From a virus, in IMG/VR virus record IMGVR_UViG_3300037010_000944, positions 1 through 28,252 of that record: a stretch of 28,252 bases of DNA. One strand, 5' to 3'. The notes beneath the pieces were generated by a model. The model searched no databases and was not told the DNA's origin. It saw only the letters and a list, made by a program, of their open reading frames with translations. The number at the start of each line of letters is the position of its first letter. Positions within the stretch are counted from its first letter, which is position 1. Positions 16,945 through 22,500 of the stretch are shown here, piece by piece. The position numbers were made by a program, and so were the translations under genes.

Positions 16945-17994
16945 ATGACCAAAAAGAAAATTAAATTAACAGACAGTAGAGATGCTTTTAAACCTTTTCA
17001 ATACCCTGAATTTTATGATTTGTGGCTTAAACATGAACAAATTCATTGGAGCCATTCTGTTGTGGCAATGCAACAAGATATCAGAGATTGGAAAAATGCT
17101 CCGGATAACCAGAGAAATTTCTTAACTCAAATTTTGCGATTGTTTACCCAAGGGGACATCGATGTTGCAGGTGCTTATATTGATAATTACCTTCCAATCT
17201 TCCCACAACCTGAAATTAGAATGATGTTGTTAGGGTTTGCAGCAAGAGAGGCAGTTCACATTGCAGCATATAGTCACCTGATGGAAAGTTTGGGTTTTGA
17301 AGACTCTGTTTACACAGATTTCTTTCAATATCAAGAAATGGCAGCAAAGCATGATTTTTTCAAACAAATTTCTGGAACAGATCATAACCAAATCGTTCAA
17401 CAAATGTGTGCTGTTAGTTCGTTTACTGAAGGTATGCAATTATTCAGCTCATTTGCAATGCTATTAAACTTTGGTCGTAATAATATGTTTCCTGGTATGA
17501 CAAAAATTGTTACTTGGAGTATTATTGATGAAAGTTGTTTAATTAAGGATACAGAGGTATTAACCCCTACAGGGTGGAAACCAATTCAACACCTTTCACT
17601 ATCAGACCAGTTGCTACAATTTGACATCAATACTGGAAATACTGAATTTGTACACCCCACTAATCTAACACACACTACTAGAACAGAGTCATACGTGTTT
17701 GAGTCTGATGATATCTACCAACATACAACATCTGATCACAGGATGATAACAAAGAGTGGTGAAAAATTTGTGGATATTACAGCAGATATGATAAATGAGG
17801 ATAATAACCTATTGATAATATCTGGCTCTAAGTTATCAGGAGATGATATATTAACAGATGAGGACAAGGCAACTATTGAATTAATCATAACTGCCCAATA
17901 TCCTGTTCAATGGATTTATGACAAAATTCCATTTGTATCATCTGAATGGGCCCATTCAGCAGTAGAATATTATTTAATGTTGACAACTCGTTAA
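16945..17994 (+). CDS. nrdB: NrdB N-terminal part fused to split-intein N fragment
   Basis: Residues 1-197 are the N-terminal two-thirds of the ribonucleotide reductase beta subunit. They carry the first ExxH (Glu102, His105), the radical tyrosine Tyr109 four residues later, and Glu162 (FTEGMQLF). The extein ends WSIIDES. At Cys198 (codon 17536-17538) an intein starts with CLIKDTEVLTPTGWKPI (block A), followed by the TxxH of block B (TTSDHRM). The 152-residue intein fragment ends at a TAA, and the rest of NrdB is encoded about 900 nt downstream. Splicing in trans would be needed to complete the second diiron ExxH (Glu196, then Cys-His from the other half). The SD AAGGAATAACAA precedes the ATG. 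Confidence 0.9.
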   Translation: MTKKKIKLTDSRDAFKPFQYPEFYDLWLKHEQIHWSHSVVAMQQDIRDWKNAPDNQRNFLTQILRLFTQGDIDVAGAYIDNYLPIFPQPEIRMMLLGFAAREAVHIAAYSHLMESLGFEDSVYTDFFQYQEMAAKHDFFKQISGTDHNQIVQQMCAVSSFTEGMQLFSSFAMLLNFGRNNMFPGMTKIVTWSIIDESCLIKDTEVLTPTGWKPIQHLSLSDQLLQFDINTGNTEFVHPTNLTHTTRTESYVFESDDIYQHTTSDHRMITKSGEKFVDITADMINEDNNLLIISGSKLSGDDILTDEDKATIELIITAQYPVQWIYDKIPFVSSEWAHSAVEYYLMLTTR

Positions 17995-18016
17995 TTGGAG
18001 TATCATCGTCCAGTAA

Positions 18017-18024
18017 TATAAATA
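18017..18024 (+). promoter_or_regulatory. T4-type late promoter TATAAATA for the GIY-YIG gene
   Basis: An exact plus-strand TATAAATA lies in the gap between the split-intein halves. By T4 spacing the start would be near 18030, 27 nt before the endonuclease ATG. T4 I-TevI, also a GIY-YIG enzyme, has its own late promoter inside the td intron. Confidence 0.75.
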
Positions 18025-18059
18025 CATACACAAACCAAGTTACCACAGGAGAGTGTATG
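18025..18059 (+). promoter_or_regulatory. Start-codon-sequestering hairpin of the GIY-YIG gene
   Basis: CATACAC (18025-18031) and GTGTATG (18053-18059) are perfectly complementary. The 3' arm contains the ATG, and AGGAG is in the 21-nt loop. The late start near 18030 removes nearly all of the 5' arm. Read-through RNA from nrdA-nrdB would therefore hide the start codon, and late RNA would not. Confidence 0.6.
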
Positions 18060-18905
18060 CATTACATAATATACAAGACAACAAATACTACTAATGGAAA
18101 GATTTATATTGGGTTACACAAACAACTTGCGTTAGATTTTGATGGATATTATGGAAGTGGAACAATATTAAAACGAAGTATTGATAAACACGGAATTGAT
18201 AATTTTAAAAGGGAGACATTGTTTGTGTTTGATACCTTAGCTGAAGTAAGAGCCAAGGAGAAAGAATTGGTAACTGAGGAGTTTTGTACCAGGTCAGATA
18301 ATTATAATATTTCTGTTGGTGGAACAGGAGGTAACACCACAGCAGGTTTAACACCACAACAGAAGATGCTCATAAGCGAAAAAACCAAACAGGTAAAATT
18401 AGAAAAAGGCTCCAACATTTATAGTGGTGAGAAGTTAAAAAATGCCCAAATTAGAATGAAAAATATACGAATTCAACCTGATAATAGAGGGTTATGTAGG
18501 TCCCAGGAATTAAAGGATAGGTGGTCAACTACCAAAAAAGACAAACACCTAAAGTGGATTACAGATGGTGACACATCTAGGTTGATTCACTCAACTGATA
18601 TCATACCAAATAGTTGGAACATTGGTCGAGATCCTAACTATAAACGGTTTACTGCTCACACACAAGAATCTAAAAATATTATATCTAAAAAAATTAAAGG
18701 AGACAAATGTTATAATAATGGGATAGTCAATTTAAAGTTAAAAGTAGGACAATCACCTCCAGATGGGTTTAAATTAGGTATGATACAACACCATCTTCCC
18801 AAACATTGGATAACCAATGGTACAATAAATAAAAAACATTTAACCAACACCTCTATACCAACCGGTTGGTATAGAGGTCGAACCATAGGAAAAAAATATG
18901 AATAA
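18057..18905 (+). CDS. Free-standing GIY-YIG homing endonuclease inside the split-intein gap
   Basis: The 282-residue product starts at ATG 18057-18059, 5 nt after AGGAG. The longer open frame upstream overlaps the intein N fragment and lacks an RBS. Residues 1-85 are a GIY-YIG nuclease domain: YIIYKTTN, then GKIYIGLHK, YYGSGTILKRSIDKHG and a conserved acidic KEKELV helix. Residues about 165-282 hold three copies of a roughly 30-residue W/Y-x-x-(N/D)G...P-x-(G/S)W/F-x-x-G module, likely DNA-binding. It would cleave intein-free nrdB alleles and spread the locus. Its end overlaps the start of the next gene by 8 nt, indicating coupled translation. Confidence 0.85.
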   Translation: MHYIIYKTTNTTNGKIYIGLHKQLALDFDGYYGSGTILKRSIDKHGIDNFKRETLFVFDTLAEVRAKEKELVTEEFCTRSDNYNISVGGTGGNTTAGLTPQQKMLISEKTKQVKLEKGSNIYSGEKLKNAQIRMKNIRIQPDNRGLCRSQELKDRWSTTKKDKHLKWITDGDTSRLIHSTDIIPNSWNIGRDPNYKRFTAHTQESKNIISKKIKGDKCYNNGIVNLKLKVGQSPPDGFKLGMIQHHLPKHWITNGTINKKHLTNTSIPTGWYRGRTIGKKYE

Positions 18906-19503
18906 CACAATTTTAGAAGCATTCAATACACTCGCCAATGTAGCAGGTGGTACAATAAAGGACAATCAGCTTATTAAAACCCCTACTACTAAATTTAATA
19001 AACAACACATTACCCACGAGCCTTTAGAGTTCTATTGTGCTACTGTGCCTGGTACTGCATTTGTAATTAGGTCAAAAGGAAAAATATCAGTAACTGGTAA
19101 TTGCCACTGTGAAGGTATGACCAAATTATTCAGAACATTCATCAAAGAAAATAGAGAAATTTGGACAGATGAACTAAAAGCACAGTTATATGGCATCGCT
19201 GAAAAAATGGTCGAATTGGAAGATGGATTTATTAATTTGGCATATGGGGTAATGGACGGAAGTGAGTTTAAACTCCCCCTTTATAAAGAGGACATGCACA
19301 AATATATCAGATATATTGCTGATAGACGACTAATTGCTTTGGGGTTGAAAGGTATCTTCAAACACAAAAAGAATCCTCTGCCTTGGATTGACGAAATGTT
19401 AGTGTTACCTTCACATAGTAACTTTTTTGAACAAGAAGAGAGCTCCTATAGCAAGGGCGCTCTTACAGGCAACTGGGATGACGTGTGGGGTACTGTGTCA
19501 TAA
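18898..19503 (+). CDS. nrdB: Split-intein C fragment fused to NrdB C-terminal part
   Basis: Residues 1-68 are the intein C fragment: block F-like LEFYCATVPGTAFVIRSKGK and block G SVTGN, with terminal Asn68 followed by the +1 Cys. The penultimate residue is Gly rather than the usual His. From Cys69 (codon 19102-19104) the sequence resumes NrdB with CHCEGMTKLFR, supplying the His of the second ExxH, and ends with an acidic, aromatic tail (NWDDVWGTVS) of the kind that docks into NrdA. The ATG has AGGA 7-8 nt upstream and overlaps the endonuclease stop. Trans-splicing would give a NrdB of 331 residues. Confidence 0.88.
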   Translation: MNNTILEAFNTLANVAGGTIKDNQLIKTPTTKFNKQHITHEPLEFYCATVPGTAFVIRSKGKISVTGNCHCEGMTKLFRTFIKENREIWTDELKAQLYGIAEKMVELEDGFINLAYGVMDGSEFKLPLYKEDMHKYIRYIADRRLIALGLKGIFKHKKNPLPWIDEMLVLPSHSNFFEQEESSYSKGALTGNWDDVWGTVS

Positions 19504-19568: not shown

Positions 19569-20651
19569 ATGGCTACAAAAACAGAAGCATTCATCGGCAA
19601 GGCGTCAGCTATTCATCAACACAAATATGATTATACATTAGTTGAGTATATTAACAATTCGACTAATGTGATAATTATATGTCCCATCCACGGAAGATTT
19701 ACTCAACGTCCAGGAAACCATTTAAGCGGTGCTCAATGTAAGGAGTGCTCAAAGCTCAATAGAGCCGCTACAAATTTAGAAAAATATGGCCATCCAAATA
19801 TTGCTCACGGCACAAAGAAAGATAAAATATCAACTACCAATATCGAGCGGTATGGTGTATCACAATCTGCTGCAAGTTCAAATAACATCAAAAAACGAAA
19901 ACAAACATTGTTGGGTAGATATGGGGTAGATAATCCATCTAAAATCTTACAATTTCAAGAAAAACGAAAACAAACCTTTTTAGATAGATATGGAGCTGAT
20001 AACCCATCTAATGTATTGTTGTTTCAAGAAAAACGAAAGCAAACTTTTTTAGATAGATATGGAGTACCAAGCTCATTTAAACGTTTAGATAGCATAGAAA
20101 AGAGTCGCAACACTTGTATACAACAATACGGAGTGCCACACCACACCCAACGAAATATTAGTCCAACAATTTTAAATAATATATCTGATTTTGATTGGTT
20201 ATATGACCAATATATCACTCAACAAAAATCAGCTACAAAAATAGCAATCGAGCTAGGGGTGACAACAAAAACAATATGCACTTACCTGAAGAGACAAGAA
20301 ATAACATTACGAAGAATGGTTAAATTCTCGTGGATGTGCATTGATTGGTTGGATTCTATAATGGACAAAGATAACATATTAATTGTACATTCTCTCAACA
20401 GTGGAGAATACAATATACCAAATACCAAACTACATGTGGACGGGTTTTGTGAAGCAACAAATACTGTGTATGAATTTCACGGGGATTATTGGCACGGAAA
20501 TCCAACTAAGTACCACCCTGATAGACTTAATACTACTACAAATTCCACAATGGGTGAGCTATACAAAAAAACCATTGAACGGGAAGAAAAAATTCGAGAA
20601 CTTGGATATGAATTGGTGATTATGTGGGAATCTGATTTTAACAACCACTAA
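19569..20651 (+). CDS. Vsr-like (EDxHD-type) homing endonuclease with modular repeats
   Basis: A 360-residue protein. Residues 1-60 match the N-terminal zinc-ribbon module of phage endonucleases: KYDYTLVEYINNSTN, CPIHGRF and CKEC. Residues 70-195 contain about five repeats of roughly 24 residues, each with a (R/Q)YGV core often followed by DNPS, and EKRKQTFLD between them. Residues 212-245 look like a helix-turn-helix (SATKIAIELGVTTKTI). Residues 250-360 form the nuclease core, with HVDGFCE, YEFHGDYWHGNP and a C-terminal EKIRELGYELVIMWE, as in the Vsr-related homing enzymes first noted beside fractured genes. It lies immediately downstream of the split nrdB, a typical site. RBS access is restricted by the terminator hairpin. 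Confidence 0.82.
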   Translation: MATKTEAFIGKASAIHQHKYDYTLVEYINNSTNVIIICPIHGRFTQRPGNHLSGAQCKECSKLNRAATNLEKYGHPNIAHGTKKDKISTTNIERYGVSQSAASSNNIKKRKQTLLGRYGVDNPSKILQFQEKRKQTFLDRYGADNPSNVLLFQEKRKQTFLDRYGVPSSFKRLDSIEKSRNTCIQQYGVPHHTQRNISPTILNNISDFDWLYDQYITQQKSATKIAIELGVTTKTICTYLKRQEITLRRMVKFSWMCIDWLDSIMDKDNILIVHSLNSGEYNIPNTKLHVDGFCEATNTVYEFHGDYWHGNPTKYHPDRLNTTTNSTMGELYKKTIEREEKIRELGYELVIMWESDFNNH

Positions 20652-20676: not shown

Positions 20677-21506
20677 ACCCCCTCTTCCAATAAAAGCCAA
20701 TATATAACTTGTTGGCTTTTATTGCTCCAGATATCGCTCCACTATATAACCCAAACTGTTTTTTCAATTTCTCCCATAGTATTCCAAACTTTAACAAGTT
20801 CACCATCTATTGTTAGTTGTTGAACTTGTTTTCCACTCCTTTTAGATGGAGTTAATCTAATATCATTTAACTCTTTTATGTTGATTAATTTATTATCTAG
20901 TACATCCAAATCACCAACCAATCTCCAATAAAACCTCCAACAGTTTGATACTTATATTTTCTAACTGCTACGCTAATATTTCTCCAAGATTTTATCTCCA
21001 AATCAATGCCTGCTTGTCTCGACGATTTCCATTCTTTTATAACTTCTCCTGTTATAGCATCTATTTGATAGATTTGTTTATCAGTAGCGTTTCCACCAGG
21101 GTTATTTTCTTTCATCTTTTGTTGATGTTGTTCTGTGTGTTTAGTAGGAATAATTTCTCCTGCTTGGATTAGTGCTTTTCTTGTTTGACTTATTCTTTGT
21201 TGGAAGGTTCGTTATATTTGTGTTTATATCCTCTTCCCCCTGCCTCTAAATTTAAACACATTTTATCATTTAAGATATCTTCTGTTAGTATTTGATTTTC
21301 AACCAAAAATGCTTCTTCTCTTGTCAGACACATTTGTAGTATTTCCCTGGAAAAACATCTCTACCATATTTTTTGATGTAGTTTAACATTTTAATACCAG
21401 AACCGAGGTAATTATCAGTTAGAATGTTGGTGGAATGAACCGCAATATAAAAATGTTGGGTTAATATACAAGTTGTTTTGTACACACAATGGTATTGTTT
21501 AGTCAT
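20675..21506 (-). pseudogene. Decayed GIY-YIG/NUMOD homing endonuclease with four frameshifts
   Basis: From ATG at 21504-21506 the minus strand reads a GIY-YIG start: HCVYKTT, then DNYLGSGIKMLNYIKKYG. Coding then jumps frame at four places: an A5 run at 21351-21355, a T3 run at 21196-21198, an A4 run at 20930-20933 and a T6 run at 20759-20764 (plus-strand bases). Joined, the pieces give REILQMCLTREEAFLVEN, then a NUMOD3-like KALIQAGEIIPTKHTEQH stretch, and two NUMOD1-like modules (IYQIDAITGEVIKEWKSS; VQQLTIDGELVKVW), ending in FYWKRG and TAA at 20675-20677. Each break is a single-base change in a short homopolymer: three losses and one gain. The element lies opposite to nrdB and just upstream of the disrupted HAD gene. 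Confidence 0.85.
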
Positions 21507-21537: not shown

Positions 21538-21571
21538 ATATTTTTACACAACAATCAACAAGGAACCAAAA

Positions 21572-22109
21572 ATGATAATCAGAGATAGAATAGAGGAGGA
21601 AGGTTCACATAAATTTAAAATTTATGTGGACCTTTGAAAAACTTGATGGAGTAATGGTTGACTTTAGCAAATTTGCTGAAGAAGTGATCGGACACCATCC
21701 CAAAGATTGGGAGATGGACAGAAACGTAAAAAAATCATTTTGGAAAGGAGTGGACAAGTGGGTTAAGGATGGTAATAAGTTTTTTGAACTTATGGATCCA
21801 ATGCCAGATGCTTTTCATTTGTGGGCATATATTGAAAAATATCACCCTACTATATTATCAGCTACTGGACACACCAGACACGCTGAAATAGAGAAAAGAA
21901 ATTGGGTACACAATCATTTAGGACCATCTGTTCCAGTTATTTTAACTGTTGCTGCTGCAGATAAGGCTAATTACATAACACATGACAAGTGTATATTGAT
22001 TGACGACCGTATGAAAGCAATTGCGCCTTGGAGAGACAGAGGCGGAATTGGTATTTTACACACAAGTGCACTAGATACAATTGCACAGCTTATTGAATTG
22101 GGATTATAG
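21572..22109 (+). CDS. HAD-family 5'(3')-deoxynucleotidase-like gene with 10-nt interruption in the DxDG motif
   Basis: ATG at 21572-21574 lies 7 nt after AAGGA. The first 21 codons end IYVDL, then TGA (21635-21637). The +1 frame resumes DGVMVDFSKF and runs 154 residues to the TAG at 22107. That part is typical of phage NT5C-like HAD phosphatases: a TGHTRH motif with Thr/Ser after strand 2, a Lys in AAADKANY, and the metal-site ILIDDR. Skipping 10 nt (CTT at 21632 to CTT at 21642) restores IYVDLDGVMVDF, including nucleophile Asp20 and Asp22, in a 175-residue product. The alternative ATG at 21624 has its SD about 20 nt away, lies in a stem, and lacks the nucleophile. It is either recoded by ribosome bypassing or a recent pseudogene. 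Confidence 0.7.
21599..21644 (+). other. Candidate translational bypass element with upstream stem
   Basis: An inverted repeat with 18-nt arms (21599-21616 and 21618-21635, two G-U pairs if RNA) ends at the take-off codon. CTT (21632-21634) is followed by TGA, and an identical CTT (21642-21644) precedes the resuming frame. The matched-codon and stop layout is like that of T4 gene 60, on a much smaller scale. Confidence 0.5.
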
Positions 22110-22110
22110 C

Positions 22111-22500
22111 ATGGGATATATAGCGTTTGAATTAGATGAACAATCCAGAACTAAAATATTGGACTATTTTGCCCCAGCTCATCCAGATGTTATAGGTCAC
22201 CACATTACACTTGAGTTTGGAGTGCCTGAACCAACTAAGGAAAAGTGGAAGGAACTACACAAAAAATACGCAACAGCTAAGATCACTGGGGTTGCACAAA
22301 ATGAAAAGGCAAAAGCATTAACCGTGTCATTTGACGGAAATGAGCGTAGGGATGATGGGAAATATTTTCACATCACACTTTCAATTGATAGATCATCGGG
22401 AGTTAAACCAGTATATTCCAACCAATTATTGGTGGATGAACCAATATGGAATGTTGGATTAATTGTTTTTGTTACTGGAACTGTTAAATTTTTCAAATAA
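22111..22500 (+). CDS. 2H phosphoesterase (HxT/HxT) protein
   Basis: The 129-residue product starts at ATG 22111-22113, one base after the HAD stop; the upstream frame extension overlaps HAD and has no RBS. Two H-x-T motifs define the 2H phosphoesterase superfamily: HHITLEFGV (His31, Thr33) and FHITLSID (His87, Thr89), spaced as expected for the two-lobed fold. Members hydrolyse 2',3'-cyclic phosphates, ligate RNA 2'-5', or, as T4 Acb1 (gp57B), cleave cyclic oligonucleotides to block CBASS immunity. Which of these applies cannot be told from motifs. Coupling to a HAD phosphatase may suggest nucleotide or RNA-end processing. Confidence 0.75.
   Translation: MGYIAFELDEQSRTKILDYFAPAHPDVIGHHITLEFGVPEPTKEKWKELHKKYATAKITGVAQNEKAKALTVSFDGNERRDDGKYFHITLSIDRSSGVKPVYSNQLLVDEPIWNVGLIVFVTGTVKFFK

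Follow-up and report, generated by a model that had tools for sequence, protein, structure and literature searches.

A ten-base insertion in motif I of a phage deoxyribonucleotidase gene, probably recent and inactivating

The window analysed here, 28,252 bases long, is a single virus record (IMGVR_UViG_3300037010_000944) and carries a nucleotidase gene whose catalytic motif I is interrupted by ten bases that begin with a stop codon. We favour, with somewhat better than even confidence, a recent inactivating insertion as the explanation, and to the same degree we would rank it above programmed bypass, a +1 shift, an artefact and a translational restart. According to this proposal, the ten bases would have entered the gene recently between the two halves of motif I, ribosomes setting out from the ATG at 21572 would release a 21-residue peptide at the TGA at 21635, and the intact enzyme would be absent or would arise in traces only, through chance +1 shifting or hopping. 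Too little time would have passed since the insertion for the remaining frame to show damage. The ten bases may have come from break repair or from slippage prompted by a hairpin, as is suggested by an endonuclease remnant next to the gene and by a hairpin at the insertion.

A split motif I in a deoxyribonucleotidase gene

The gene has its start and end in place, with a Shine-Dalgarno-like AAGGA (21560–21564, plus strand) 7 bases 5' of the ATG at 21572 and a TAG ending at 22109. The first open stretch (21572–21637, plus strand) comprises 21 codons, MIIRDRIEEEGSHKFKIYVDL, closing with K I Y V D L and TGA; frame translation and comparison with the closest relative, locus L021, assign it to the N-terminal portion of the nucleotidase, HAD nucleophile Asp included. 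This frame is the native one, given the similar start and N-terminus (MQVKEILENQNKYKIFVDL) of L021. Within the motif, GAC occupies 21629–21631, CTT (Leu21) 21632–21634 and TGA 21635–21637, and GAT GGA follows from 21645. The ten additional bases, TGAAAAACTT (21635–21644, plus strand, from sequence and alignments), can be placed equally well up to 3 bases leftward, and they are flanked by identical codons, one CTT preceding them and another (21642–21644, plus strand) closing them. As a consequence of the split, the D-x-D of motif I does not lie within one reading frame. The remaining nucleotidase frame (21645–22109, plus strand) runs from DGVMVDF to IELGL and TAG; it is open from an internal ATG (21624–21626, plus strand), from which it encodes 161 aa reading MWTFEKLDGVMVDF, and it contains a second internal start at ATG 21654.

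These elements, from the Shine-Dalgarno sequence and ATG through IYVDL, the TGA and both CTT codons to DGVMVDF, had been described in a first-pass annotation, and a coordinate and frame check confirmed all of them. The same annotation held that only a hop between the two CTT codons restores the motif. This stands as far as the exact motif is concerned, as the hop over 10 bases yields it with the predicted product IYVDLDGVMVDF; it does not stand for the gene as a whole, since shifting by +1 at CTT_TGA leads to IYVDL-EKL-DGVMVDF, open to the end with three extra residues in the motif (protein P0002), and a reading from ATG 21624 also exists. Readthrough of the TGA alone was ruled out by further stops downstream in the frame of 21572, and transcriptional slippage on AAAAA by the position of the TGA 5' of the A run.

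In a profile search the downstream protein matches phrog_2643, a 5'-3' deoxyribonucleotidase family, with an E value of 7.9e-27, which makes the gene a phage 5'-3' deoxyribonucleotidase of the HAD superfamily. Pfam returned no HAD match for the downstream protein and no match at all for the +1 reading, which was likewise without a sequence match in a phmmer search of the PDB. An AlphaFold model of the +1 reading has a HAD-like fold (pLDDT 87.7, pTM 0.82); intact relatives supplied the alignment behind the model, which says nothing on activity. It matches 11 PDB entries at E values of at most 0.001, with TM-scores of only about 0.5, and all 11 are HAD-type hydrolases by title, the deoxyribonucleotidase-like 3bwv among them. 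The gene after the nucleotidase (22111–22500) is conserved (phrog_36523) and weakly resembles a tRNA-ligase phosphodiesterase domain, with a score short of the Pfam cut-off.

Relatives, selection and neighbouring genes

The ten bases are absent from all 25 related environmental phage loci in IMG/VR and from all 10 aligned phage homologues (10 fetched of 141 matching records), and they are thus an insertion relative to these. Twenty of the loci came from a scan, each reading D-x-D-G-V without the insert, with L021 the closest at 80% identity; five more, reached through a neighbouring topoisomerase-like gene, are all intact. L029 and L030, as well as L036 and L037, look like near copies, so that the number of independent loci is slightly below 25. 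In the 10 phage homologues the two motif aspartates are always one residue apart, and position four holds G in 9 of them and Q in the other one. The insert thus parts two aspartates (D20 and D25, P0002 numbering) that never vary in either alignment and whose D-x-D spacing is unchanged in 10/10 and 13/13 other rows, which argues for inactivation, as does the absence of the insert from every relative. Conservation among homologues had been named in the first-pass annotation as a check on a bypass site, and none of those compared has the insert. Close DNA relatives in phage records were limited to short matches, all below 80% query coverage; a pattern search of genome contigs gave 90 matches with no relative among them, and exact-pattern scans of viral contigs gave nothing beyond a single 190-kb record. 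We also considered the hairpin 3' arm as the inserted segment, with CTTTGAAAAACTTGATGG as native motif, and ruled this out because it is IYVDL, read in frame 0, that is conserved.

A comparison with L021 across 153 codons gives a dN of 0.15 and a dS of about 2.2, which is near saturation, so the nucleotidase frame was constrained through most of the history shared with L021; the first-pass annotation was broadly right in seeing no decay. The resulting dN/dS of about 0.07 counts against an inactivated gene, and no relaxed constraint is apparent beyond a small difference in deviating sites. Among positions on which 70% or more of 17 outgroup sequences concur, 3 are altered in this gene alone (A111I, P113H and K150I) and none in L021 alone, a difference in the direction expected from inactivation; at a 50% cut the counts are 4 versus 2, and at 90% they are 0 versus 0. 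Such sites are too few for calling decay, and they would fit a kept function or a too-recent insertion equally. One extra residue precedes motif IV in the region 21985–22005 (THDKC-ILIDD versus PNR-ILIDD). This indel lies in a locally divergent stretch and measures 3 bases; its preservation of the frame is a further point against inactivation.

The combination of stop and matched codon was set against chance by placing random 10-base pieces of the genome at random codon junctions in 400,000 trials. The stop came first in 5.97% of trials, the end equalled the preceding codon in 2.04%, and both were found in 0.12%. The pattern, which was chosen for its look, is thus unusual for a random insertion, a point against simple inactivation, but it is not beyond chance, and any insertion that ends in the preceding codon lets a hop restore the motif. 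The insert shares 6/10 bases with the preceding decamer (22.7% of 5,619 CTT-ending decamers do as well) and 7/10 with the decamer form common in relatives, which 10.1% of the 5,619 reach; a tandem duplication of motif I DNA is a possible origin in view of these counts.

Directly upstream of the nucleotidase lies the remnant of a GIY-YIG homing endonuclease gene (20897–21506, minus strand) with apparently two frame changes, and this second, apparently frame-broken gene adjoining the first is in favour of inactivation. Its part at 21327–21506 matches phrog_314 at 9.9e-11 and homing endonucleases in 529 phage records; read by eye, the remnant continues in two other frames to about 20900, and the piece at 20900–21115 has no family match. 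An intact-looking endonuclease gene is located at 19569–20651. Further upstream (16945–19503) the ribonucleotide reductase small subunit is split into an N-part (16945–17994), which runs into an intein-like N-terminus (SIIDES followed by CLIKDTEVLTPTGW), and a C-part (18898–19503), which opens with an intein-like C-terminus (KGKISVTGN before C). The gene between the halves (17946–18905) encodes a GIY-YIG homing endonuclease, in a split-intein arrangement that we take to be a so-called 'fractured gene'. Inactivation is also favoured by the standing of the nucleotidase, which phrog_2643 places in the accessory class 'moron, auxiliary metabolic gene' and which is single-copy in the 190-kb relative; a second copy in that record was ruled out, as there is one match only. 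Just past the right end of the window, the 190-kb record (G001) encodes a permuted tmRNA of beta-proteobacterial type (129837–130164, minus strand; RF04321 115.6 bits, RF01850 95.2 bits, tag ANSENYALAA), also seen in locus L047 at 837–1164.

The hairpin and the competing explanations

An RNA hairpin of 17 bp with a 3-base loop (21599–21635, plus strand), which the first-pass annotation did not mention, ends, by its 3' arm, at the take-off CTT and the first T of the TGA. The 121-base fold around it has a z score of -4.36, with 0/200 shuffles as stable, and for the 37 bases that lead up to the second aspartate of the motif the folding energy is -18.8 kcal/mol here versus -8.6 to 0.0 in 20 relatives, none of which has the hairpin. 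The 190-kb record contains 18 hairpins that reach the score cut of this one (0, 1 and 0 in three shuffles), and 8 of them, counting the present one, coincide in whole or in part with listed ORFs, in some cases only at the ORF end. Positions within 2 bases of an end of the other 17 make up 0.09% of the genome, and the hairpin and the insertion are therefore probably linked, by origin or by function; an inactivating insertion leaves this coincidence unexplained. Strong hairpins inside genes are not rare in the 190-kb record, which means that they do not need a bypass. One of them, a perfect 17-bp hairpin at 77101–77138, is in an ORF (76285–77850, minus strand) whose frame is unbroken and which looks homing-endonuclease-like by eye; the strongest hairpin of the record, at 62404–62458, is intergenic and has a 26-bp stem with no mismatches (G-T allowed). 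The gene 60 5' stem-loop of phage T4 has been proposed, in the excerpted text of PMC5009743 and PMC11194080, to pull the mRNA while closing outside the ribosome. In a motor control that set a 14-base gap from free mRNA to the P site and drew its codons from ORFs encoding 150 aa or more, the refolding gain on a 10-base slide here was -4.4 kcal/mol, matched or beaten by 809 of 5,588 codons, and most of the 17-bp stem could close only after about 14 bases of slide. Although the hairpin resembles a bypass stimulator, this ordinary gain does not single it out as a zipper motor, and the modelled control speaks against a special hairpin role during a 10-base hop, which again suits inactivation.

A programmed bypass, as the first-pass annotation proposed, would have peptidyl-tRNA-Leu leave the CTT at 21632, skip 10 bases and re-pair at the CTT at 21642; by analogy, the TGA would be in the A site at take-off, and the hairpin, on closing again in the ribosome's wake, would favour forward movement. 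We regard this as unlikely. What stands of the proposal is the match of the two CTT codons and the stop directly 3' of the take-off codon, together with a hop that restores the invariant D-x-D spacing; what speaks against it is that none of the 25 loci and 10 homologues has the insert and that the hairpin's gain is ordinary. Strong in-coding hairpins occur elsewhere in the genome without a frame break. Also missing are the signals of gene 60: the gap, which is AAAAACTT-like and has only weak pairs 3' of it, holds no A-site stem-loop, the strong stem being 5' of the stop, and 21 codons precede the stop, compared with a KKYK signal 25–30 residues from the P site as reported in the excerpts of PMC5009743. 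The simple insertion that the annotation had named as its alternative fits these results better. In favour of a bypass are the constraint on the downstream frame and the position of the loop (21616–21618), about 15 bases 5' of the take-off codon, a distance that, given the dimensions of the ribosome, puts it near the mRNA exit. Stop-hops between matched codons are on record from synthetic constructs, as is the 5' stem-loop 'motor' of gene 60 (both in the excerpts of PMC5009743), and gene 60 likewise adjoins an apparently defective homing endonuclease gene, mobA, in the text available from PMC3014915. The latter describes the gene 60 gap as absent from other T4-related phages, so that absence in relatives does not refute a bypass here. 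The phage encodes a predicted tRNA-Leu with anticodon AAG, matching CTT, which is a minor Leu codon (7.7 per 1,000 versus 35.1 for TTA); the predicted tRNA and the codon usage would allow a hop without demonstrating one. Three tRNAs called as Leu (TAA, CAA and AAG) are found at about 172280–176869 of the 190-kb record, and in locus L049, with 75–76 bases each and without the long variable arm usual in bacterial tRNA-Leu. By analogy, a 10-base bypass might make the insertion in the motif harmless and might perhaps have been kept as resistance to the neighbouring, since decayed homing endonuclease, a notion as improbable as the bypass itself. Bonocora and others (2011) reportedly regarded the T4 gap and mobA as a mobile cassette and proposed the gap as resistance to the homing endonuclease.

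Frameshifting by +1 at CTT_TGA, adventitious or regulatory, is comparably improbable. It would give a full-length product with Glu-Lys-Leu between the motif I aspartates, IYVDLEKLDGVMVDF, in a reading open to the end, and CUU_U followed by an open +1 frame at UGA is what release factor 2 uses. The release factor 2 site has a Shine-Dalgarno-like element close upstream; here no such element stands just before the CTT, where the bases read TTTATGTGGAC by eye. CUU_U was by far the most efficient of 32 tested shift sites, and in synthetic constructs a stem-loop placed upstream can promote such shifting (both from the excerpts of PMC5009743). The product can be modelled with a HAD-like fold, but a fold drawn from intact relatives is no show of activity, and because the otherwise invariant D-x-D spacing is altered, an active enzyme from this product is unlikely. 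A sequencing or assembly artefact, for instance a chimera at the hairpin, seems to us more doubtful still: the insertion abuts a strong hairpin, where polymerases err, but the sole second record, IMGVR_UViG_3300036715_001865 (190,391 bases), differs from the window at 0 of 28,252 bases. Both may rest on the same reads, and the agreement is weak replication and a weak argument against an artefact. Moreover, 20 of the 26 ORFs of the relative G002 match the 190-kb record (one with a second weak match elsewhere), each in a single frame over the main match, and the assembly is thus not full of frame errors, in a test that is blind to breaks near gene ends, including the nucleotidase's own. Least credible is a restart after the TGA at ATG 21624 or ATG 21654, by which a protein devoid of catalytic activity would serve some other role. 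The two ATGs do share the downstream frame, yet neither has a Shine-Dalgarno sequence at the usual spacing, the hairpin encloses ATG 21624 within its 3' arm, and the product has a motif I without the nucleophile Asp, which is lacking in none of the relatives seen.

Comparison with known systems

If the gene is simply broken, it serves as a warning: about 0.12% of random 10-base insertions produce matched codons and a stop, a rate at which look-alikes of bypass sites are to be expected in large phage collections. If it is bypassed, the site would be a compact natural one, much shorter than that of T4 gene 60, and would reveal if a 5' hairpin suffices to carry the ribosome across a gap when no long nascent-peptide signal assists it. 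A literature search, with subscription journals mostly outside its coverage, found no further phage bypass cases beyond gene 60 and those named in a 2016 review.

Gene 60 resembles the present locus in being a phage gene with identical take-off and landing codons and a stop after take-off (excerpts of PMC5009743, PMC3014915 and PMC11194080), with a gap absent from relatives and a defective homing endonuclease gene close by (PMC3014915, in part). It differs in its gap of 50 nt rather than 10, in using GGA rather than CTT, in the stem-loop with the stop inside the gap, and in having 46 codons before the gap versus 21, with a long nascent-peptide signal in gene 60 only. The synthetic stop-hops of E. 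coli are likewise short hops over a stop between identical codons (PMC5009743, as excerpted), but they are engineered and 9 nt per residue, whereas the site described here is natural and frame-changing. The byps of Magnusiomyces capitatus mitochondria are also short blocks inserted in coding sequence, with 81 sites in one genome and decoding shown, compared with one site here. The release factor 2 gene prfB shares the CTT followed by TGA and the open +1 frame; unlike prfB, this gene lacks a Shine-Dalgarno-like stimulator, has an A after the TGA and would give a +1 product with an altered active-site motif. Frame-disrupted accessory phage genes share the single small insertion with a stop, the otherwise sound frame and the decayed neighbour, and the present gene departs from them in that its insertion has matching end codons and sits precisely where a hairpin ends.
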